Origin: Rhodovulum visakhapatnamense
GTDB lineage: Bacteria; Pseudomonadota; Alphaproteobacteria; Rhodobacterales; Rhodobacteraceae
Length of the DNA: 64,000 nt
Reading direction: 5' to 3'
Assembly (NCBI RefSeq): GCF_004365965.1
Contig: NZ_SOEB01000021.1
Span: 1-64,000, forward strand
The translations under genes were made by a program, and so were the position numbers. Below are positions 29,101 through 41,018 of the stretch, one piece after another. The notes under the pieces are model-generated. The model was not told the DNA's origin. It did no database searches and saw only the letters and a list, made by a program, of their open reading frames with translations. Each line of letters starts with the position of its first letter. Position 1 is the first letter of the stretch.

Positions 29101-30603
29101 ATGCCTTCGGATCTGGTCATCGTCTATCACCGCCAGCCCTACGAGGAGGTGGAGGAAGACGGAAAGATCGTCCTGCGAGAAAACAAGAGCCCGAATGGCA
29201 TCGTGCCGACCCTGAAGAGCTTCTTCGGCAGGTTCGAGAAAGGCGCCTGGATCGCCTGGAAACAGGCCGAGGACCCGGCCAGTCCCGATTTCGAGCGGGT
29301 GATCGAGGTCGACGACGCTTTCGGCAAGTACACGGTCTCGCGGCTGCCGCTGACCGCCGACCAGGTCAAGAGCTTCTACCACGTCACCTCGAAAGAGGCG
29401 TTCTGGCCGATCCTGCATTCCTTCAAGGAACGCTACAATTACGACCCCGTCGACTGGCCGACCTTTCGCGAGGTGAACTGGGCCTTTGCCGAGGCCGCCG
29501 CCGCCGAGGCCGCCGAAGGGGCCGTCGTCTGGGTGCATGACTACAATCTCTGGCTGGTGCCGGGCTACCTGCGGACCCTGCGCCCCGATGTGAAGATCAG
29601 CTTCTTCCACCACACGCCCTTCCCGGCGGCCGACATGTTCAACGTGCTGCCCTGGCGCAAGGAGATCCTGCAAAGCCTTCTGGCCTGCGACGTGGTGGGC
29701 TTTCACATCCCGCGCTATGTGTCGAATTTCGTCTCGGCCGCGCGCAGCCTTCTCGATGTCGAGGTGACGGCGCGCCAGAAGGTCGAGCCGGAATTCGCCG
29801 CCGAGGTGACCGCGCTTTCCGAACGCAGCGTGCCGACCGAACTGGTCTATGAAGACCGGCGGGTTGCGGTGCAGGCCTCGCCGGTGGGGGTGGATGCCGA
29901 TTATATCGACGCGGTCGCGCGGCGCGAGGAAACCGCCCGCCGCGCCGAAGAGATCCGCACGGAAATGGGCGGCGCCAAGTTGCTGCTGTCGGTCGGGCGT
30001 ACCGATTACACCAAGGGCGGGATCGACCAGTTGCTGAGCTACGAGCGGCTGCTGGAGGCACAGCCCGATTTGCGCGGCCAGGTCCGGCTGATGCATGTCT
30101 CGGTGCCCGCGAACCGCAACATGACGGTTTACGAGAACATCCAGAACGAGCTGGAACAGATGGCGGGGCGGATCAACGGCCGTTTCGGCAGCCTCGACTG
30201 GCAGCCCATCGTGCTGATTTCGCGCGCGATCCCGTTCGAGGATCTGGTCGCCTATTACCGCGCCGCCGATGTCGCCTGGATCACGCCGCTGGCAGACGGG
30301 ATGAACCTGGTCTGCAAGGAGTTTTGCGCCGCACGGGTGGATGGAGACGGGGTGCTGGTCTTGTCGGAATTCGCGGGCGCCGCGGTCGAGATGGGGGCGG
30401 CGCTGCTGACCAACCCGTTCTCGCACCGCTCGATGGACAGCGCCATCGCCCAGGCGCTGGACATGCCGGCGGCCGAACGCCGCGACCGCATGGCGGCGCT
30501 TCGCGATGTGGTGCATCGCCACGACGTCCGGTTCTGGGCCAACCATCAGATGGAGGCGCTGTCCGGTCCGACGCTGGGCGCGGCCGCCTTGCCCGCCGCG
30601 TAG
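29101..30603 (+). CDS. ggpS: Glucosylglycerol-phosphate synthase (GT20)
   Basis: A 500-residue GT20 glycosyltransferase that joins glucose from ADP-glucose to sn-glycerol 3-phosphate. The N-terminal half has VWVHDYNLWLVPGYLR and SFFHHTPFPAADMFNVLPWR; FNVLPWR distinguishes GgpS from trehalose-6-phosphate synthase. The C-terminal half has GRTDYTKGG, then VSVPANRNMTVYENIQNEL, ISRAIPFEDLVAYYRAADV and LADGMNLVCKEF with donor-site residues. It is full length for GgpS. With the two upstream genes it completes synthesis of the compatible solute glucosylglycerol. Trehalose-phosphate synthase is the main alternative and is less likely given gpsA in the operon. Confidence 0.93.
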   Translation: MPSDLVIVYHRQPYEEVEEDGKIVLRENKSPNGIVPTLKSFFGRFEKGAWIAWKQAEDPASPDFERVIEVDDAFGKYTVSRLPLTADQVKSFYHVTSKEAFWPILHSFKERYNYDPVDWPTFREVNWAFAEAAAAEAAEGAVVWVHDYNLWLVPGYLRTLRPDVKISFFHHTPFPAADMFNVLPWRKEILQSLLACDVVGFHIPRYVSNFVSAARSLLDVEVTARQKVEPEFAAEVTALSERSVPTELVYEDRRVAVQASPVGVDADYIDAVARREETARRAEEIRTEMGGAKLLLSVGRTDYTKGGIDQLLSYERLLEAQPDLRGQVRLMHVSVPANRNMTVYENIQNELEQMAGRINGRFGSLDWQPIVLISRAIPFEDLVAYYRAADVAWITPLADGMNLVCKEFCAARVDGDGVLVLSEFAGAAVEMGAALLTNPFSHRSMDSAIAQALDMPAAERRDRMAALRDVVHRHDVRFWANHQMEALSGPTLGAAALPAA

Positions 30604-30628
30604 TCTTTTCCTGACGCAGCGGAACCTT

Positions 30629-30650
30629 GCGGGGCGACAGGGCGCCCCGC
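30629..30650 (+). terminator. GC hairpin after ggpS
   Basis: GCGGGGCG and CGCCCCGC make an 8-bp stem with a 6-base loop, 25 bases after the ggpS stop. No T-run follows, so it may be a terminator or a pause. It separates the solute operon from the nadD-lar operon. Confidence 0.5.
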
Positions 30651-30700
30651 CTCTGCTAGCATGAGCCTGCGGAAGACGGGCTTTCGGTGGGGAGGGTACG

Positions 30701-31306
30701 GTGCGCGTCGCTTTGTTCGGCGGAAGCTTCGATCCGGTTCACGACGGGCATCTGGCGGCGGCGGTGCTGGCGCGGCAGGCCCTTGACCTAGACCGTGTCA
30801 TCCTGATCCCGGCAAACTCGACCGCCGCGCGGCCCGGTCCCAAGGCGCAGGCCGTCGCCTCGGCGGCGCATCGGCTTGCGATGCTGCGGTGCCTTTGCGA
30901 AGGCCGCCCCTGGCTTGAGGTCAGCAATGTCGAATGCCGTCCCGGCGCGTCGCCCTTCGCCGTCGACACGCTGGCCGTATTTCGCGAAACGCTGCCGCCC
31001 GGCACCGAGATCGTTCTGCTGATCGGCAGCGACAAGCTGGCGCTGTTGCCACGTTGGCGCGGCATCGACGAGATCCGTGCCGGTGCGCGTATCGTTGCGC
31101 TGGCCCGGCCCGGTCATCCGCTCGACGCGGCGCCGCCCTGGGTCGGGCGGCTTAATGGACCCTTGCCTGACCTCTCCTCGACCCAGATCCGCGCGCGTCT
31201 GGCGGCAGGCGCGCCGCTCGACGGACTCTGCCCTCCGGCGGTGATCTCCTATCTGATGACAGAGCAGCCCTATGCCCGGCCCGGCCCCGCAGCCCGCTTT
31301 GCCTGA
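30701..31306 (+). CDS. nadD: NadD-family nicotinate-nucleotide adenylyltransferase, first gene of the lar operon
   Basis: A 201-residue nucleotidyltransferase. The GGSFDPVHDGH block with the HxGH motif opens the protein and SSTQIRARL near residue 163 is the ISSTxIR motif. Enzymes of this family adenylate nicotinate mononucleotide to nicotinate adenine dinucleotide. That dinucleotide is the substrate of LarB, encoded two genes on, so this looks like a dedicated supply enzyme rather than the housekeeping NadD, which in relatives usually sits beside rsfS. A GTG start follows a strong GGGGAGGG site. The end overlaps larE by 35 bp. Confidence 0.85.
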   Translation: MRVALFGGSFDPVHDGHLAAAVLARQALDLDRVILIPANSTAARPGPKAQAVASAAHRLAMLRCLCEGRPWLEVSNVECRPGASPFAVDTLAVFRETLPPGTEIVLLIGSDKLALLPRWRGIDEIRAGARIVALARPGHPLDAAPPWVGRLNGPLPDLSSTQIRARLAAGAPLDGLCPPAVISYLMTEQPYARPGPAARFA

Positions 31307-32099
31307 GCGGCTTGGCGCCGTGCTGGCAGGACTGCCCTTGCGGGCGGTGGCCTGCAGCGGCGGGATCGACAGCCTGCTTCTGGCGACACTCGCTCATCGG
31401 CAGGCGCCGGACGCCACGCGCGTCGTTCATGCCGTCAGCCCCGCCGTCCCGGCCGCCGCCACAGCACGGGTTCGTGCGCAGGCCAGCGCCGAGGGCTGGG
31501 CGCTCGATCTGGTCGATGCGGGCGAGTTTTCCGACCCCGACTATCTGGCCAACCCGGTCGACCGCTGTTTCTTCTGCAAGCAGCGGCTTTATTCCACCCT
31601 TCGGCAGGTGACGGCCGCGCTCGACGGGCCGGTCGCGATCCTTTCGGGCACCAATGCCGACGATCTGGGCGAGTATCGCCCGGGCCTTCGCGCCGCCGAG
31701 GCGCTGGGCGTGCGGCATCCCTATGTCGAGGCGGGGATCGGCAAGGCCGATATCCGGGCGCTGGCCCGGGTGCTGGGCCTCGCTTTCGCCGATCTGCCCG
31801 CCTCGCCCTGCCTGGCAAGCCGCCTTTACACCGGGCTTGCCGTCACGCCCGAACGGCTGCGCGCGGTCGAGCGGGCCGAGGACCGGCTGCGGGCCGAGAC
31901 CGGGCTTTCGGTGCTGCGTTGCCGCCGCCGGGGCGATCTGATGCTGATCGAGGTCGAGGCGGGCGAGGGCGCGCGGATCGGACCCGGGCTGATCGCCCGC
32001 GTCGCCGCCGAGGCCCGCGCCATCGATCCGGGCATCCGTGACCTCAGGCTCGACCCGCGCCCCTATGCGCCGGGCCGGGCGTTTCGCGGGGCGCGATGA
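31272..32099 (+). CDS. larE: Nickel-pincer cofactor sulfur transferase LarE
   Basis: A 275-residue PP-loop ATPase. The pyrophosphate loop is VACSGGIDSLLLATL near residue 27. The family-specific DRCFFCKQRLY, ILSGTNADDLGEYRPG and SPCLASRLYTG follow; the last holds the cysteine that, in single-Cys LarE enzymes, is sacrificed to give sulfur to the carboxylated pyridine ring. LarE acts after LarB to make the bis-thiocarboxylate of the nickel-pincer nucleotide. The gene overlaps nadD by 35 bp and larB by 4 bp. No extra C-terminal cysteine cluster of the 4Fe-4S type is evident, so the sacrificial form is more likely. Confidence 0.93.
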   Translation: MPGPAPQPALPERLGAVLAGLPLRAVACSGGIDSLLLATLAHRQAPDATRVVHAVSPAVPAAATARVRAQASAEGWALDLVDAGEFSDPDYLANPVDRCFFCKQRLYSTLRQVTAALDGPVAILSGTNADDLGEYRPGLRAAEALGVRHPYVEAGIGKADIRALARVLGLAFADLPASPCLASRLYTGLAVTPERLRAVERAEDRLRAETGLSVLRCRRRGDLMLIEVEAGEGARIGPGLIARVAAEARAIDPGIRDLRLDPRPYAPGRAFRGAR

Positions 32100-32731
32100 G
32101 GGTGCGGCTCGATCACGACCGGCCGCGCCGGATCGGCCAGCCCGAGGCGATCCTTTGCGAGGGCAAGGCGCTGGCCGATCTCGACGCGATCCTCGAGGCG
32201 CTGCAGGGTCGGCCCGCACTGCTGACGCGTCTGGCGCCCGAGCGCCATGCCGCGCTGGCCGCCCCGCCCGAGGATTACGACCCCGCCTCGCGCACTGCCA
32301 TCGTCAATGGCTGTCTGCCCGCGCGGACGGGCATTGTGCGGGTGGTGACGGCGGGCACCGCCGATCTGCCGGTGGCGATCGAGGCGCTGCGCACGCTTCG
32401 TTTTGGCGGACTCTCGCCGGACCTGATCGCCGATATCGGCGTGGCCGGGCTCTGGCGGCTGGAAGAGCAGATCGAGACGATCCGGGACAGCGATGCGGTG
32501 ATCGCGGTGGCGGGCATGGACGGGGCACTGGTGTCGGTGATCGGCGGGCTGGTGGGCGTGCCGGTGATCGGGGTGCCCACGTCGGTCGGGTATGGCGCGG
32601 CCGAGGGCGGGCGCACGGCGCTGAACGCGATGCTGGCCAGCTGTGCCCAAGGGGTCCTGGTCTGCAATATCGACAACGGCTTCGGCGCGGCCTCGGCGGC
32701 GCTGCGGATCCTTGCGGGGCGGGCGCGGTGA
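32096..32731 (+). CDS. larB: Nickel-pincer cofactor carboxylase/hydrolase LarB
   Basis: A 211-residue protein with the PurE-like (AIR carboxylase) C-terminal fold of LarB, which carboxylates C5 of the pyridinium of nicotinate adenine dinucleotide and hydrolyses the phosphoanhydride. Recognised are VVTAGTADLPVAIEA, GVAGLWRLEEQ, VAGMDGALVSVIGGLVG, GVPTSVGYGA and the C-terminal NIDNGFGAA. The Cys in LASCAQG, 28 residues before the end, is at the place of the substrate-binding Cys of LarB. It is about 35 residues shorter at the N-terminus than the Lactobacillus enzyme. Overlaps larE by 4 bp and larC by 4 bp. Confidence 0.93.
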   Translation: MRVRLDHDRPRRIGQPEAILCEGKALADLDAILEALQGRPALLTRLAPERHAALAAPPEDYDPASRTAIVNGCLPARTGIVRVVTAGTADLPVAIEALRTLRFGGLSPDLIADIGVAGLWRLEEQIETIRDSDAVIAVAGMDGALVSVIGGLVGVPVIGVPTSVGYGAAEGGRTALNAMLASCAQGVLVCNIDNGFGAASAALRILAGRAR

Positions 32732-33513
32732 GCGGCGTTCTGGTGATCCGGACGCCGTCGGGGCTCAGCGGCGACATGCTGCTGGCGGGGCTTGCGGTGA
32801 TGGCGGGTGAGGCGGCCGATATCGGCTCGGTTCTGGCCGCGACCGGTCTGCCCTTGCCCCCCGATGCGGTCGAGATCCGGCCGCATGCCTTGCAGGGCAT
32901 CTCGGGCTGGCAGGCGCGGGTCCGGCTGCCGCATGAACATGCCCACCGCCGCCTCGGCGATATTCTGGCGCTGATCGAGGCCAGCCACCTGTCCGCCCCG
33001 GCGAAGACGGTCGCGGCGCGGGCCTTCACCCTGCTGGCCGAGGCCGAGGGCGCGGTTCATGGCCGCCCGCCCGGGGAAATCGCCTTTCACGAGGTCGGCG
33101 CGCTTGACTCGATCCTCGACACCTGTGTCGCGGCCGAGCTGCTGGCCCGGATTGCGCCCGACCGGCTGGTCTGCAGCCCGCTGCCGCTATGCGACGGGAC
33201 GGTCCGCTGTGCCCATGGCCCGCTGCCGACGCCCGCGCCTGCGGTGCAGGAGCTTCTGCGCGGGGTGCCGGTCCGCGGTCTTGCCTCGACCGGCGAAACC
33301 GTGACCCCGACCGCCATCGCCTTCCTGCGCGCAGCCGGGTTCGCCTTCGGATACTGGCCCGAAATGGTGATTCGACAGACCGCCCGGATCTATGGCGGGC
33401 GGGTGCTGCCGGAGGTGCCGAACGGGGCGCTTTTCGCGCTGGGCGATGCGGGGTTGGCCCCAGTGGAACAGCGGCCCAAGGGCTTGACAGAGCCAGGCAG
33501 TGAGTCCACTTGA
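32728..33513 (+). CDS. larC: Nickel insertion protein LarC, N-terminal (LarC1) part only
   Basis: A 261-residue protein matching the first domain of LarC, the CTP-dependent nickel insertase (cyclometallase) that completes the pincer cofactor. The opening GLSGDMLLAGLA corresponds to the conserved G-I-S-G-D-M of LarC. The His-rich stretch is short here (HEHAHRRLGDI). HEVGALDSILD and a GETVTPTAIAFL block follow. Normal LarC is about 400 residues; its C-terminal CTP-binding LarC2 domain is absent. The frame ends at GLTEPGSEST and the following bases are a promoter, so no frameshifted remainder exists. The GTG start overlaps the larB stop. Either nickel insertion works without LarC2, or another protein supplies it. 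Confidence 0.88.
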   Translation: MSGVLVIRTPSGLSGDMLLAGLAVMAGEAADIGSVLAATGLPLPPDAVEIRPHALQGISGWQARVRLPHEHAHRRLGDILALIEASHLSAPAKTVAARAFTLLAEAEGAVHGRPPGEIAFHEVGALDSILDTCVAAELLARIAPDRLVCSPLPLCDGTVRCAHGPLPTPAPAVQELLRGVPVRGLASTGETVTPTAIAFLRAAGFAFGYWPEMVIRQTARIYGGRVLPEVPNGALFALGDAGLAPVEQRPKGLTEPGSEST

Positions 33514-33538
33514 CTTAACGTTAACTTGCGCAGATAAT
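33510..33538 (+). promoter_or_regulatory. Near-consensus sigma-70 promoter for the radical SAM unit
   Basis: TTGACT (33510-33515), a 17-base spacer and GATAAT (33533-33538) each differ from consensus by one base. The -35 overlaps the larC stop codon. The palindrome TTAACGTTAA (33515-33524) lies across the -35 edge and spacer, a good place for a repressor. Transcription would start near 33545, giving a leader of about 98 bases. Strong promoters of this kind are uncommon in this GC-rich DNA. Confidence 0.7.
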
Positions 33539-33642
33539 AATGAAATTAAAGGCAATTTGTTTCCGTTCTCTGCGTTTGCCGAGCCTGGCGGCGCGTGCCG
33601 AGTGGCGTTTGTTCCCGAAAGTCATTGACCGCGAGGTGTGCG

Positions 33643-35058
33643 ATGCCCGTGACCGCCACGACTGTGCCCGCGTCCGCGGGCGAAAGCCGCAAGACCCCCT
33701 CTGCAGCGCCGGTTTACCAGACAGACTACCTTATGCCGGTCGAGGTGCATGTCTTTGCCCGCGACGGCCAGCACTACGCCTTCGACTGCCGGTCATACGC
33801 GATCTTCAAGCTTGACCGAGGGGCGGCTCTGGTTCTGGACCGTGCCGCGCGCATGAGCCTGCCCGAAATCGTCGAGGATCTGGCGGGCGAGTTGTCCGAG
33901 GCCGAGATCCGCGCCCACTACCTGCGCTTTCTCGAAATGCTGGTGGCGGGCGAGCTGTCCTGCGAACCGGTACCGCGGCCCGGCCGACCGCCCTTCAAGA
34001 ACCTCGTCCTGATGCTGGCGGGCGGCTGCAACATGGGCTGCAGTTACTGTTTCGAGAAGGACGTGCCGATCTATCAGAAGCCCAATGTCATGACCCGCGA
34101 GCGGGCCGACGAGGTGCTCGAGTGGTTCTTCCGCCATCAGGAAGGGCCGAAGGCGCATGTGCAGCTTTACGGCGGCGAGCCGCTGCTGAACTGGGAGGTG
34201 CTGACCCATGTCGTCGAGCGGATCGACGCCTGGGCCGCGCGCGAGGGCAAGGACCTGAGCAAGTACCTGATCACCAACGGCACGCTGCTGAACGAAGAGA
34301 GGGTGGGCTTTCTGGTCGATCACGGGGTGACGGTGCAGGTCAGCGTCGATGGCGACCGCCGGACCCATGACCGCTTTCGCACCTTCAAGAACGGCCGTCC
34401 GACCATGCCCGCGATCCTGCCCAATATCAAAAGGCTGGCCGAGAAGGGCGCCGATTTCAACCTGCGCGCGGTGCTGACCCGTGCCAACAAGGACCCCGAT
34501 GCCGTGACCCGCGGGCTGAGCGCGCTGGGCGGCGAGAGGGTCTCGTTCGAGGTGGTGGCGACCGACGCCCGCGAGGCGCAGTTCGACGAGGCCGACTGGG
34601 AAGAATTTCTGGCCCATTACGACCGCTATCTGGGCCGCGCCTTCGAGACCTGGACCGGCCTGCCCGACGAAATGAAGGGCACGATCCTCAAGATCCTGCG
34701 CCAGCAGCGCGTGGTCTATGGCTGCGGCGCGGGCGTGTCCGAGGTGACGGTGGCGCCCGATGGCAACATCTATGAATGCCAGCGGATCTATCGCGATCCC
34801 TATTCCAGCATCGCCGAGGACAAGGGGCCGACCGAGCTTGACAGCCGCTTCCTGACCATGGTCGACGACCGTCCGGTCTGCCAAGACTGCTGGGCGCGGT
34901 ATCTCTGCGGCGGCGGCTGCTTGCATCAGTCGCAGACCGGGCACGGCTCGGACGACCCGCTGCCGCAATATTGCCGGATGAAACATGCGCTGGTCGAGGC
35001 GGCCATCGTGCGGATCGACGAGATCCGCAGCGTCGCGGCCCGGGCCGTCGAGGCCTGA
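33643..35058 (+). CDS. Radical SAM/SPASM peptide maturase
   Basis: A 471-residue radical SAM enzyme. The SAM-binding cluster motif is C129-NMG-C133-SY-C136, with GGEP at 178-181. The C-terminal SPASM domain has the seven-cysteine pattern C361, C379, C413-xx-C416, C422-xxx-C426 and C444, which binds two auxiliary 4Fe-4S clusters. The first 120 residues look like the leader-recognition region of peptide maturases such as CteB or QhpD. I chose the ATG at 33643 because GAGG stands 6 bases before it. The enzyme is likely to modify the Cys-Gly-Thr repeat protein encoded two genes on, for example by Cys-to-Thr thioether bonds as in SCIFF peptides; this is inference from family and context. Confidence 0.88.
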   Translation: MPVTATTVPASAGESRKTPSAAPVYQTDYLMPVEVHVFARDGQHYAFDCRSYAIFKLDRGAALVLDRAARMSLPEIVEDLAGELSEAEIRAHYLRFLEMLVAGELSCEPVPRPGRPPFKNLVLMLAGGCNMGCSYCFEKDVPIYQKPNVMTRERADEVLEWFFRHQEGPKAHVQLYGGEPLLNWEVLTHVVERIDAWAAREGKDLSKYLITNGTLLNEERVGFLVDHGVTVQVSVDGDRRTHDRFRTFKNGRPTMPAILPNIKRLAEKGADFNLRAVLTRANKDPDAVTRGLSALGGERVSFEVVATDAREAQFDEADWEEFLAHYDRYLGRAFETWTGLPDEMKGTILKILRQQRVVYGCGAGVSEVTVAPDGNIYECQRIYRDPYSSIAEDKGPTELDSRFLTMVDDRPVCQDCWARYLCGGGCLHQSQTGHGSDDPLPQYCRMKHALVEAAIVRIDEIRSVAARAVEA

Positions 35059-35062
35059 GGCC

Positions 35063-36220
35063 ATGGCGCTGGCTCTCGACAGACGCCCGCTGGGCAAGAC
35101 CGGGATCGAGGTCTCGGCGATGGGGATCGGGTCGAGCCCGTTCCGCCACGGGGCCGCGGCCGACTGGGCCGGGCTGCTGGCAGAGGCCTATGACTGCGGC
35201 ATCACCTATTACGACACCGCGCGCAGCTATGTGAACGGCGAGGCGGTGATCGCCCATCTGCCGCCCCGCGTGCGCGACGGGCTGACCATCGCCACCAAGA
35301 CCGGCGCGCGGGGCGGGCCGCATTGCCTGCGCGATCTGCAGACCTCGCTTCGGGCCATGGGCCGGGACCATATCGATCTGTGGATGACGCACATGGTCGA
35401 GACGATGCGCGAGTATGAGCTTTGCACCGAACTGGGCGGGTTCTGCGATGTCGCGGTCGCGGCCCGGACGGCGGGGTTGGTGCGTGCGACCGGCGCCTCG
35501 TTCCATGCCCCGACCGAGGTCATCCTGCGCGCCATCGAGGAGCGCGCCTTCGATGTGGTGATGTTTCCTTTCAACGTGCTTGGCCGCGAGACGGTGTTCG
35601 GCGCGCCCATTTCCGACTATCGCGACCGGCTGTTGCCCGCGGCGCGCGCAAACGGTGTCGGCGTCGTGGTGATGAAGGTGCTGGCGGGCGGCGAGATGAA
35701 ACATGGCGCGCCGCGGCTTGGGTTTCTGGCCGATCCCGCCACCGGTCAGGACACGCTGTCGGGGGCGATCCGCTATGCGCTGATGCAGCCCGGTATCGCG
35801 ACCGCCGTGCTTGGCATGGCCAGCCGGACCGAGCTGCGCCGGAACCTGGCCGCAGGGATCGGCGTCGGGCCGGACCCCGGGGCCTGCCAGAGGCTTGAGG
35901 CCCGGGTGGCGGCGGCCTCTCCCGGCGAATGCACCCGTTGCGCCGCCTGTCTGGGCGTCTGCCCCGAGGGGATCGAAATTCCCAAGGTGTTTCGCCTGCT
36001 CGATCAGGACCGCTTTTTCGGCATGACCGGGATCGCTCGGTTCAAATATGCCCGGATGCAGCCCGATGCCTCGGCCTGCGCGCGCTGCGGAAAATGCGCC
36101 GAGGTCTGCCCCGAGGATTTCGATATCGCCCGCCTGCTGCATCGTGCGCATGCGCGGTTGACCCAAGCCACCCGTCCAGCCGGTTCCAGACAGACAGAGG
36201 AGGAAAATACGCATGGCTGA
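35063..36220 (+). CDS. Aldo/keto reductase fused to a two-cluster ferredoxin domain
   Basis: A 385-residue protein. Residues 1-280 are an aldo/keto-reductase barrel with the usual tetrad in place: Asp51, Tyr56, Lys79 (IATKTG) and His110 (WMTHM). Residues 288-352 carry two CxxCxxCxxxCP motifs (C290, C293, C296, C300 and C339, C342, C345, C349), enough for two 4Fe-4S clusters. Such proteins may pass electrons rather than reduce free carbonyls. It starts four bases after the maturase gene and overlaps the peptide gene by 8 bp. It may supply electrons to the radical SAM enzyme or reduce a product on the peptide; nothing in the sequence decides this. Confidence 0.88.
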   Translation: MALALDRRPLGKTGIEVSAMGIGSSPFRHGAAADWAGLLAEAYDCGITYYDTARSYVNGEAVIAHLPPRVRDGLTIATKTGARGGPHCLRDLQTSLRAMGRDHIDLWMTHMVETMREYELCTELGGFCDVAVAARTAGLVRATGASFHAPTEVILRAIEERAFDVVMFPFNVLGRETVFGAPISDYRDRLLPAARANGVGVVVMKVLAGGEMKHGAPRLGFLADPATGQDTLSGAIRYALMQPGIATAVLGMASRTELRRNLAAGIGVGPDPGACQRLEARVAAASPGECTRCAACLGVCPEGIEIPKVFRLLDQDRFFGMTGIARFKYARMQPDASACARCGKCAEVCPEDFDIARLLHRAHARLTQATRPAGSRQTEEENTHG

Positions 36221-36626
36221 CGAAGTCCAGGGCTTCAAGAAGGTGACTGCCGAGCAGTTGCCCGAGGAGCAGAAGAAGAAGCTCCGCAACGCGCTCCAGC
36301 AGGAGCTGGCGGAGGCGATGATCAAGGTCATCCGCGCCGAGCCGCCGCAGGTGGATCTGAGCGAGATCGAAGTGATCCTCAAACCCGGGCAACGGATCGA
36401 GGAATGGGATGTGCTCGCCAGTTGCGGAACCTGTGGCACCTGCGGCACTTGCGGGACCTGCGGCACGTGCGGGACGGCGGCGCTGACCGATGACATCCCG
36501 ATCAACATCGCCCGCGAGCTTGGGGTGCTGCTGCCCAAGCCGCAGGTCGATCTGCTGCGGCTCCATTCCGACATGGAAAAGATGAACTCGATGATCCTGA
36601 CGCTGGCCAATCGTCGGCAGAAATAG
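36213..36626 (+). CDS. Cys-Gly-Thr hexarepeat protein, candidate modified-peptide precursor
   Basis: A 137-residue cytoplasmic protein with no signal peptide. Residues 1-70 are a charged helical leader (PEEQKKKLRNALQQELAEAM). Residues 71-88 are six perfect Cys-Gly-Thr units, giving cysteines at 71, 74, 77, 80, 83 and 86, the only cysteines in the protein. Residues 89-137 form a helical tail. An AGGAGG-type ribosome site, the best in the neighbourhood, precedes the ATG. It overlaps the reductase gene, downstream of the radical SAM/SPASM maturase. Best guess: substrate of that maturase (RiPP-like). Alternatives are a metal-binding carrier, perhaps for nickel given the lar genes, or a sulfur carrier. 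I know no described family with this repeat. Confidence 0.85.
   Translation: MADEVQGFKKVTAEQLPEEQKKKLRNALQQELAEAMIKVIRAEPPQVDLSEIEVILKPGQRIEEWDVLASCGTCGTCGTCGTCGTCGTAALTDDIPINIARELGVLLPKPQVDLLRLHSDMEKMNSMILTLANRRQK
36423..36476 (+). repeat. Six 9-bp codon repeats encoding Cys-Gly-Thr
   Basis: Six nonanucleotides of the form TGY-GGN-ACN stand in tandem inside the peptide gene. All six differ at synonymous positions (GGA-ACC, GGC-ACC with TGT, GGC-ACT, GGG-ACC, GGC-ACG, GGG-ACG), so the amino-acid repeat is held by selection, not by recent slippage. Confidence 0.9.
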
Positions 36627-36635
36627 CGGCGCGGA

Positions 36636-37862
36636 TCAGTCGAACGAGGCGAGCGCCGCGTCCAGAACCGGATCGCGGCCCTCGCGCAGATCGACGGCCC
36701 CGGGCGCGGCCTCGATGTCGGGGACGAGCCCCGCGCCCTCGATCGGTGTATCGGTGCCGGGCCGCGCATAGCGGGCAACCGGCACGAAAACCCCCAGAAG
36801 CGACCGCGGCAGGCGGAACTCGACCGGATCGCCCACGGCGCCGCCGCTTGGGCTGCCGACCAGGGCCGCGCCGGGCAGGGCGGCAAGGGCCGCGGCACAG
36901 ATCTCGGCGGTCGAGGCGGTGCCCGCGTCGATCAGCAGCCGCAGCCCGGAGGGCTGGGGCGTGGCTTTGGGCGTAAGGATCAGATCCTCGAACCGCCCGA
37001 GCTCTCCGCCATAGGGGGCGGGATGGGCATGGCGCATCCAGACCAGCGGCGCACCGGTCAGCCTTGTTGCCAGCATGCGGGCCTGTTCGTCGCGCCCGCC
37101 CCCATTGCCGCGCAGGTCGATTGCCAGCCGGTCGCACCCCTCAAGCCCGGCAAGGGCGGCGTCAAGCTGGCGCGCCATCTCGGCATCGCTGATCTGACCC
37201 GTCCGGTCGCGACAGGCAAAGCTGCGCACCGTGATCAGCCCGGTCCGGTCGCCAATCCGCCGGGCGCGCACCGCAGGCGGCGGCGGGGCGGCGGGGTCCT
37301 GCGTGCGCCACTCGGGCGCAAGCGTCAGATCGTGCCCCCGCGCATCGGTCAGGGTCAGGCATCGGGGCAGGGGGGGCTCGCCCGGCAGGCAGTCGCGGTG
37401 CGAGAGGCTTTGCAGGGCAAAGAGGTGCCTCTGCCGGGGCGTCGAGCCGGGGCGCAGCCGGAGGGATGCCAGGACCTTTTCGGCCGGAACGCCGTCGATG
37501 GCGGTCAGGAGATCGCCGACCGAGGCCGCCCGATAGGCCGAAATCGCAGGATCGGCCCAGAGAAGCGCCGGGCCTTCGGGCGTGGGCGCGAAGGCCAGCC
37601 CCGACTGCCAGCCGGTCTCTGCCCCCATCACGCTGGGTGCCAGTCTCAGGTGACAATCGCCCAGCGCCCAAAGCCCGCCGCGAAGCGCCCGTGCCCCGGC
37701 CCAGAGATCGCCCGCAGGCTCGACCGCGCGCAACGCCGAAAACACGGCTCCCGGATCGGTGCCGTCAAGTTCGGCATGACGCGCCCGACCGGCCCACCAG
37801 AGCGCGACCGCCCCTTCGAGAAAGTCCAGATCGGCCAGCCAGTCGGATCGCTGATAGGACAC
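36636..37862 (-). CDS. S41-family peptidase without signal peptide
   Basis: A 408-residue protein with the tail-specific-protease (S41) fold. The nucleophile region is DAGTASTAEICAAAL near residue 315, followed by ALVGSPSGGAVGDP. LAIDLRGNGGGRDEQ is the oxyanion-side block. The Lys expected about 25 residues after the Ser in CtpA is missing. An early GDCHLRL resembles the GDGHT site of the Ser-His (tricorn core/IRBP) branch. There is no signal sequence, so it probably acts in the cytoplasm. It converges on the Cys-Gly-Thr gene with 9 bp between stops. It could be the leader peptidase of that system, but opposite orientation leaves this open. The GTG start fits the domain boundary. Confidence 0.82.
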   Translation of the reverse strand: MSYQRSDWLADLDFLEGAVALWWAGRARHAELDGTDPGAVFSALRAVEPAGDLWAGARALRGGLWALGDCHLRLAPSVMGAETGWQSGLAFAPTPEGPALLWADPAISAYRAASVGDLLTAIDGVPAEKVLASLRLRPGSTPRQRHLFALQSLSHRDCLPGEPPLPRCLTLTDARGHDLTLAPEWRTQDPAAPPPPAVRARRIGDRTGLITVRSFACRDRTGQISDAEMARQLDAALAGLEGCDRLAIDLRGNGGGRDEQARMLATRLTGAPLVWMRHAHPAPYGGELGRFEDLILTPKATPQPSGLRLLIDAGTASTAEICAAALAALPGAALVGSPSGGAVGDPVEFRLPRSLLGVFVPVARYARPGTDTPIEGAGLVPDIEAAPGAVDLREGRDPVLDAALASFD

Positions 37863-38090
37863 GTTCGGCCCCTCCTGCCCGAACGGCGTTTGCTTGATGA
37901 TGCGGCGCCCGGCCGATCCGGTCCAGCCGAAATGCTGTAACCCTCCTTTCGGTGCCGCCGGGGGGCGGCGAGTGCGAAAGGGGGCCCGCGGTTGACAGGG
38001 CGGGATCGGGGCGCGCCACTTGATCCGACTGGCCGGCGGTATCGAGGCGGACAGACCGCGCGCCCCGACCCTGCGAGCAGAGGACCGACG

Positions 38091-38498
38091 ATGCTGCCCC
38101 GTGCCTCTTCCTTGCCGCTGCCCTTGCGCCCCTCACGCCACCTGCTGCCGCGCTTGACACTTGCGAGGCGCCGGACCGAGGCCTTCCGGTCCCTGGCGGC
38201 GCGCACGATTTTCGAGGCGATGGCCTACCGGGGCAGAGACGCTGCCCGCGCTGAACTGACCCGGATCGCGCTGATCTTCGAGCCCGAAGACGATGCCGAC
38301 GCCCTGGCCGAAGCCCGAAACCGCGCATGTCACCGAGACCGGGGCCTCTTCTGCGTCGGGCCGTACGGGAGGATGCGGCTGATGGTTCCCGACGAGGGGC
38401 CCGCTGCCTGCACTCTGCCGGGCGGGCGGACGCTGACCTGTCAGGGCGTGGTGGCGACCGTCGCCAATCCCGATGCCTTCACCTGCTCGCCTGGCTAG
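38091..38498 (+). CDS. Hypothetical protein with cysteine-bearing C-terminus
   Basis: A 135-residue protein I do not recognise. The N-terminal third is Leu/Arg/Pro-rich (LPLPLRPSRHLLPRL), the middle is an acidic helix (ALIFEPEDDADALAEA), and the second half carries five cysteines in short beta-like segments (CHRDRGLFCVG, AACTLPGGRTLTC, FTCSPG). An AGAGGA ribosome site precedes the ATG. It lies between the divergent S41 peptidase and the convergent gyrB with its own 228-bp upstream region. Codon use looks like that of real genes here, but it could be a chance frame. Confidence 0.5.
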   Translation: MLPRASSLPLPLRPSRHLLPRLTLARRRTEAFRSLAARTIFEAMAYRGRDAARAELTRIALIFEPEDDADALAEARNRACHRDRGLFCVGPYGRMRLMVPDEGPAACTLPGGRTLTCQGVVATVANPDAFTCSPG

Positions 38499-38522
38499 GG
38501 CCCCGGGTCCGACGCAACGGCC

Positions 38523-41018
<2,496 letters not shown>

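Follow-up and report, generated by a model that had tools for sequence, protein, structure and literature searches.

A putative maturation cassette for a (Cys-x-Thr)n repeat protein, with a SPASM radical SAM enzyme and an aldo/keto reductase, in Rhodovulum and Nocardioides

Within the 64,000-nucleotide stretch of Rhodovulum visakhapatnamense DNA considered here (contig NZ_SOEB01000021.1, positions 1 to 64,000; hereafter, the window), three neighboring genes encode a radical S-adenosylmethionine enzyme with a SPASM domain (rSAM), an aldo/keto reductase (AKR) fused at its C-terminal end to two 4Fe-4S motifs, and a 137-residue protein containing a (Cys-Gly-Thr)6 array. Judging from the sequences, we lean slightly towards the view that these genes make up a horizontally spread three-gene cassette, in which the rSAM would cross-link the (Cys-x-Thr)n array, the AKR would act as a dedicated partner, and the product would be a modified protein. 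Were this so, the cassette would provide a repeating array of Cys-x-Thr cross-links, an AKR as maturation partner, and a product possibly kept as a modified protein, all in a compact three-gene system. One copy is found in Rhodovulum kholense DSM 19783, a strain from a culture collection.

Examination of the open reading frames (ORFs), their Pfam matches and an alignment of the cysteines bore out the description given in an earlier note on this DNA, namely that a seven-cysteine SPASM enzyme, an AKR with two 4Fe-4S motifs and a 137-residue protein are encoded side by side. All ten cysteines by which a SPASM radical SAM enzyme is recognized are invariant in the three aligned members, that is, those of the CxxxCxxC motif (C129, C133 and C136) and the seven of the SPASM domain (C361, C379, C413, C416, C422, C426 and C444). 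In the AKR, the cluster cysteines (C290/293/296/300 and C339/342/345/349) are likewise invariant in the aligned members, as are D51, Y56, K79 and H110, which we take to be the AKR catalytic tetrad. As the AKR keeps these catalytic residues, a carbonyl step is possible. The repeat protein contains exactly six cysteines, all within the array (residues 71-88), as had been claimed; it has no Pfam match and nothing above the NCBIfam cut-offs. Its gene begins at 36213, where it overlaps the AKR stop, and a Shine-Dalgarno sequence, GAGGAGGA, lies upstream of the ATG. The rSAM could also start at an in-frame GTG at 33595, yielding a protein of 487 residues. A scan of positions 30000-39000 against Rfam returned nothing at the gathering threshold.

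The cassette was found in three genomes, namely, that of the window (G000), that of R. kholense DSM 19783 (G014/L027) and that of Nocardioides sp. URHA0032 (L011), a member of another phylum, in which the order is rSAM, AKR, repeat protein 1 and repeat protein 2. The Nocardioides rSAM and AKR share 61 and 62% identity with their window counterparts, and the repeat proteins 45% (copy 1) and 39% (copy 2). Hence, the proposal that the three genes form one unit held, with the genes being adjacent and in the same order in 3/3 genomes where the repeat protein was found; homologues of this protein also co-occurred with the maturase and the reductase in 3/3 genomes, albeit in a very small sample. As for copy 2 (L178, 9365-9787), no near ATG or GTG start is apparent; translation may begin at a CTG that overlaps the stop codon before it.

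Comparison of the four repeat proteins revealed how the array is conserved. There are six CxT units in the proteins of the window and R. kholense and in Nocardioides copy 1, and nine in copy 2. The middle residue is glycine in all six units of both Rhodovulum proteins; copy 1 reads CST-CST-CGT-CST-CST-CGT, such that 12/12 Cys and Thr residues of the window array are kept, with 4/6 middle residues having changed. In copy 2, four CGT units are followed by GGG, CAT, CAT, CAT, CNT, CAT and CSG. By hand count, the four proteins contain 27 CxT units and two off-pattern triplets, both in copy 2. Cys and Thr are retained while the middle residue drifts (x = G/S/A/N). Copy 1 can be considered independent of the search, since the CGT pattern scan picked copy 2 and copy 1 contains no run that this pattern could select. 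Outside the array, all four proteins share a conserved N-terminal segment, at the end of which stands a DLSxxxxxLxPGQ...W stretch; a conserved C-terminal segment, containing an AR-x-LG...PQVD stretch, is common to copy 1 and both Rhodovulum proteins.

At the DNA level, the six units are encoded by six different 9-mers in the window, in agreement with the earlier note, and by five different ones in R. kholense. As the units differ in this manner, low-complexity DNA was rejected as the origin of the array. The claim that the repeat is selected gained support from the comparison of the two Rhodovulum species, in which the 18 repeat codons presented seven synonymous and no non-synonymous changes. 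For the complete genes, the ratio of non-synonymous to synonymous substitution rates (dN/dS) between the window and R. kholense was 0.032 for the repeat protein, 0.022 for gyrB, 0.107 for the rSAM and 0.109 for the AKR. The repeat protein is under purifying selection, with a dN/dS close to that of gyrB. A chance repeat was rejected on the basis of these ratios, the hidden Markov model (HMM) scores given below and the presence of the same type of array in orthologous genes of another phylum.

The same conservation bears on what the array may do. Six evenly spaced thiols between conserved flanks could form a free-thiolate ladder that binds a metal or a cluster, with the rSAM and AKR modifying some other residue or protein and the repeat protein serving as carrier or chaperone; the position of the repeat gene downstream of nickel-pincer genes in Rhodovulum would suit such a role. 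Still, Thr is kept as strictly as Cys (27/27 CxT units), although not needed for thiolate binding, and a thiolate ladder has no need of a dedicated SPASM enzyme, such that we consider this explanation unlikely. By contrast, the joint retention of Cys and Thr in the (Cys-x-Thr)n array fits what an enzyme forming i-to-i+2 thioethers would need.

According to the cross-linking model that we favor, the SPASM enzyme would recognize the repeat protein by its conserved N-terminal segment and, most likely, join the sulfur of each Cys to the Thr two residues on (i to i+2) in a C-gamma or C-beta thioether. The AKR might then process an oxidised intermediate borne by the array, or else serve the redox cycle of the maturase. 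The product would probably remain a modified protein rather than be released as a peptide, given that conservation extends to either side of the array and that no exporter is common to both loci. The choice of the repeat protein as substrate, as well as the type of bond, the role of the AKR and the fate of the product, are what we infer from these patterns. Precedents for such chemistry exist. Recombinant CteB reportedly joined Cys32 of CteA to Thr34 via C-gamma, with earlier work having placed the bond between Cys32 and Thr37, and freyrasin contains six Cys-Asp thioethers (PMC8326336). PapB, moreover, tolerates Cys-Xn-Asp motifs with n = 0-6, both in line and nested (PMC9413430). Among the matches listed in the literature searched, mostly outside subscription journals, neither a Cys-Gly-Thr array nor such a maturase with an AKR was described. 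Ferroplasma genomic islands have been described with a radical SAM protein as well as an aldo/keto reductase, which the account consulted ties to lipids and quorum sensing and not to a peptide (PMC12350378).

The affiliation of the rSAM was considered by scoring against family models and by phylogeny. The best NCBIfam score was obtained with the nif11 maturase model (TIGR04064; 192 bits vs. a cut-off of 518.7), followed by those for QhpD (TIGR03906; 185.1 vs. 453), PapB (NF047865; 184.8 vs. 340) and the SCIFF maturase (TIGR03974; 163.5 vs. 425), with the Nocardioides enzyme presenting the same picture. Assignment to a known family was accordingly rejected, as no peptide-maturase cut-off was reached by the rSAM, and none at all by the repeat proteins. 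The best sequence match in the PDB was 5wgg (E 8.5e-34), i.e., CteB, a SCIFF maturase (PMC8326336). In a tree of 14 rows, the three cassette enzymes make up a single clade (100/100), whose branch is long and separate from a five-row QhpD group and a halogenase-linked group. L220, QhpD by score, and the nif11 enzyme lie beside this clade at an unresolved fork, with the program warning of long branches; the PapB and SCIFF enzymes, outside the tree, were compared by scores alone. The clade of cassette enzymes is firm, its sister group is not. The next-ranked alphaproteobacterial matches (L007, L008, L009 and L220) are QhpD (665-745 bits), and the three other class-level rSAM matches were rejected as cassette members, being QhpD by score. 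Two Bradyrhizobium plasmid enzymes related to QhpD (L221 and L226) adjoin a gene for tryptophan 7-halogenase, and an enzyme from a Polyangia metagenome-assembled genome (L179) groups with them.

As such, the expectation that the maturase would not cluster with a known family was supported, the enzyme having its own clade and reaching no named-family cut-off. The two outcomes that the earlier note had named as counting against its proposal, i.e., repeat proteins regularly found without the maturase or a maturase grouping with enzymes of a known unrelated substrate, were not encountered, given the unit kept in three genomes (a very small sample) and the separate rSAM clade.

The solved relatives of the rSAM also include an anaerobic sulfatase maturase (4k37, E 1.3e-10), and the sulfatase_rSAM model scores 108.5 bits. 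Anaerobic sulfatase maturases oxidise Ser or Cys. It is conceivable, then, that the maturase oxidises Thr (or Cys) in the array to carbonyls which the AKR reduces, the pair thereby epimerising or editing side chains, and this would provide the AKR, with its tetrad intact, an obvious substrate. Nonetheless, thioether-forming families score higher (163-185 bits), and it would be left unexplained why every unit combines a Cys with a Thr; we attach only a small probability to such a route.

Several observations weigh against the cross-linking model. We know of no AKR from a thioether-forming system, and the rSAM scores below the cut-off for every named peptide-maturase family. Its residues 48-102 are only weakly PqqD/RRE-like (17.3 bits vs. 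a Pfam cut-off of 23.4; two of three members at E 0.5). The array is internal in the repeat protein rather than a C-terminal core, the copy 2 array is interrupted by GGG and CSG and is followed by a diverged C-terminal segment, and the family rests on three genomes from two lineages. The maturation proposed in the earlier note stands in part. The gene unit and the Cys-to-Thr precedent speak for it; a ribosomally synthesized and post-translationally modified peptide (RiPP) in the strict sense is not supported, in view of the internal array, the conserved C-terminal segment that follows it and the lack of an exporter or peptidase common to both loci.

To describe the distribution of the cassette, genome, plasmid and viral collections were searched. 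A degenerate (CGT)3-Cys pattern, blind to members without CGT runs, matched at least 117 stretches in genome_contigs, and among the 117 listed only L011 and L027 are family members. With an HMM of the repeat family, members scored 192-257 bits (these including rows used to build the model), the other listed genome stretches at most 38.9 bits and one viral stretch 44.2 bits; the matches in the remaining 115/117 genome stretches and in 49 viral stretches were set aside by HMM score as chance or unrelated. The small protein is encoded in 2/101 genomes comprising the window genome and its relatives, these being the window genome itself and R. kholense. At class level, 4/385 genomes gave matches, i.e., the window genome and three others of 20.7-22.7 bits that were not accepted, two containing internal stops, and in the phylum of the window the repeat-protein profile matched 1/249 genomes, again the window genome. 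The best rSAM outside the family scored 167 bits, as compared to 914 for the Nocardioides ortholog, which is included in the HMM; the family is, therefore, sharply bounded among the sequences fetched. At E 1e-50, rSAM orthologs were detected in 1/396 genomes of the Nocardioides phylum, 1/198 of its family and 1/131 of the order of the window, each being an already known genome and the samples overlapping. In 10 genomes reached via other repeat matches, no rSAM ortholog was found, with one match of 116 bits.

Among the plasmids and phages searched, the repeat protein has no relative, and the Nocardioides AKR has none among plasmids at E 1e-40. The rSAM matched 45 plasmid records at E 1e-20, all less than 60% identical and the best among the matches listed 32% identical. 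In viral_contigs, neither the repeat protein nor the AKR had a relative, and the rSAM matches comprised three distant enzymes (27-28% identity). On the basis of these searches, a phage or plasmid origin was rejected. Apparently, the cassette is rare and has spread horizontally, being found in three genomes from two lineages.

Table 1. Features of the cassette and its surroundings in the window.
Feature	Position	Strand	Evidence or remark
NadD, nicotinate-nucleotide adenylyltransferase	30701..31306	+	TIGR00482 132 bits, cut-off 112.45; same place in R. kholense (G014)
LarE	31272..32099	+	TIGR00268 235 bits, cut-off 150
LarB	32096..32731	+	NF033503 234.8 bits, cut-off 175
LarC, N-terminal part only	32728..33513	+	261 aa from GTG 32728; TIGR00299 154.5 bits (scanned from 32719), cut-off 90
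Sigma-70-like promoter match	33510..33538	+	TTGACT-17-GATAAT; sole one in 30550-38560, between larC and the rSAM gene
Radical SAM/SPASM enzyme (rSAM)	33643..35058	+	471 aa from this ATG; PF04055 62.8 bits
AKR fused to two 4Fe-4S motifs	35063..36220	+	385 aa from ATG 35063; PF00248 66.9 bits, several Fer4 models
Repeat protein	36213..36626	+	137 aa; (CGT)6 array (residues 71-88) between N- and C-terminal segments
DNA of (Cys-Gly-Thr)6 array	36423..36476	+	Six distinct 9-mers
S41-family peptidase, convergent with repeat gene	36636..37862	-	PF03572 73.3 bits

In Rhodovulum, the cassette lies in a genomic island. In two congeners (G001 and G015), otsA is found some 250-270 bp from gyrB, whereas in the window and R. 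kholense, the gap is about 7.9 kb and contains nadD, larE, larB, larC, the three cassette genes and a convergent gene encoding an S41 peptidase. The gyrB stretches of five further congeners (that of G010 being only 6 kb) gave no tblastn match to the island genes or to otsA; in all, such stretches were examined in 7/14 congeners without the cassette. No mobile-element genes were identified at the island edges, although no search was aimed at them. The dN/dS between the window and R. kholense is 0.13-0.25 for the lar genes and nadD and 0.32 for the peptidase. The earlier note mentions neither this island and its lar genes nor the missing LarA.

The genes upstream of the cassette encode components of nickel-pincer cofactor synthesis, with the NadD product, nicotinic acid adenine dinucleotide, feeding the LarB pathway. 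LarC is 261 residues long in the window vs. 399 and 443 in two relatives, and nothing in the window significantly matches the remaining 160 or so residues of the Phyllobacterium homologue. The C-terminal part is missing in both the window genome and R. kholense, yet the dN/dS is about 0.25. No Lar_N domain (PF09861) was detected at E 0.001 in these two genomes or in six congeners, with the controls ringing in 2/14; one gene with this domain is found in the Nocardioides genome. Neither within 20 kb round the Nocardioides cassette nor round that Lar_N gene was there any match to nadD, larE, larB or larC. The Nocardioides locus thus does not support the lar genes as a fixed partner of the cassette. 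Four alphaproteobacterial plasmid lar regions, of 78 LarB-matching records, were viewed. Two contain larA; the other two have none in the stretch seen, where annotation is incomplete.

About 15% of the genomes examined in one study contain larB, larC and larE without larA, making a non-LarA acceptor likely (PMC11796402). This raises the thought that nadD-larE-larB-larC make the cofactor or a precursor thereof, for which the modified repeat protein or the AKR would be the acceptor. The lar genes immediately precede the cassette on its own strand, within an island common to both cassette-bearing Rhodovulum genomes; they are under purifying selection, no Lar_N was found in either genome, and acceptors other than LarA have been postulated (PMC11796402). 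Conversely, LarC is without its C-terminal part, a separate promoter-like site precedes the cassette (in itself weak evidence), the Nocardioides cassette is not flanked by lar genes, and among the four plasmid lar regions viewed, two carry larA and none is annotated with such a cassette. We regard an acceptor role as improbable. More improbable still seems a combined version, whereby a protein-borne ladder of Cys-Thr thioether rings would serve as a scaffold for a cofactor. In Rhodovulum, such a ladder would be the non-LarA acceptor for either the nickel-pincer cofactor itself or, in view of the truncated LarC, a nickel-free dithio precursor. A link between the cassette and the nickel-pincer pathway is, in sum, possible but weak and of low probability. 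Even so, the LarA-less lar genes offer one concrete, if unlikely, candidate for the question of what uses the nickel-pincer cofactor without LarA.

Between larC and the rSAM gene, one promoter match was found, as compared to 0.4 +/- 0.6 in shuffled sequence, which alone is weak evidence. The leader of about 100 nt upstream of the rSAM gene (33540-33643) is little changed in R. kholense and, together with the promoter match, points to possible transcription of the cassette as a separate unit. A TTGAC-N5-GTCAA inverted repeat occurs at the promoter-like site in R. kholense and is less perfect in the window.

Downstream of the cassette, the S41 peptidase is encoded in 2/16 genomes of the genus at E 1e-20, these being the two that contain the cassette, and tblastn gave no match to it within 20 kb of Nocardioides sequence round the cassette; by eye, no signal peptide is obvious. 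The S41 gene is separated from gyrB by 660 bp (37894-38498), in which a possible ORF (37992-38498) resembles, by eye, the corresponding stretch of R. kholense. A LysE-type translocator encoded beyond gyrB in the window is not common to the Nocardioides locus. There, the repeat genes are followed by a gene for a TadA-type secretion ATPase (L178, 4694-9197), with a TIGR03819 score of 257 bits, below the cut-off of 373, and a Pfam T2SSE score above the cut-off. Apparent Tad pilus genes occupy this same stretch, and the TadA-type ATPase is not common to the Rhodovulum locus.

Of known systems, the SCIFF (ranthipeptide) pair CteB-CteA is alike in involving a SPASM radical SAM enzyme, which is the best PDB sequence match of the cassette enzyme, and in the Cys-x-Thr (Cys32-Thr34) thioether reported there (PMC8326336). 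It differs in that the cassette presents a perfect internal CxT array, an AKR partner, hosts outside Clostridia and an rSAM that scores far below the SCIFF cut-off; moreover, the repeat protein has its six Cys within 16 residues (71-86) of 137, rather than the six Cys in forty-five residues that define SCIFF precursors. The PapB/freyrasin system likewise offers six regularly spaced Cys units, there cross-linked to a nearby residue (PMC9413430; PMC8326336), although the cassette motif is CxT and not Cys-X3-Asp/Glu, and a conserved segment follows the array. QhpD resembles the proposed system in terms of product fate, introducing Cys-Asp and Cys-Glu thioethers into an enzyme subunit that is not a RiPP (PMC8326336), but the cassette rSAM falls in a separate clade and below the QhpD cut-off, and by eye, no quinohemoprotein genes are seen in neighboring ORFs of the window. 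The cassette differs from systems with nif11-like maturases (TIGR04064) in that none of its repeat proteins exceeds the cut-off of any leader model. Based on these sequence comparisons, the cassette is best read as a variant among SPASM maturation systems of the thioether type, in which both the architecture of the substrate and the reductase partner are unusual.

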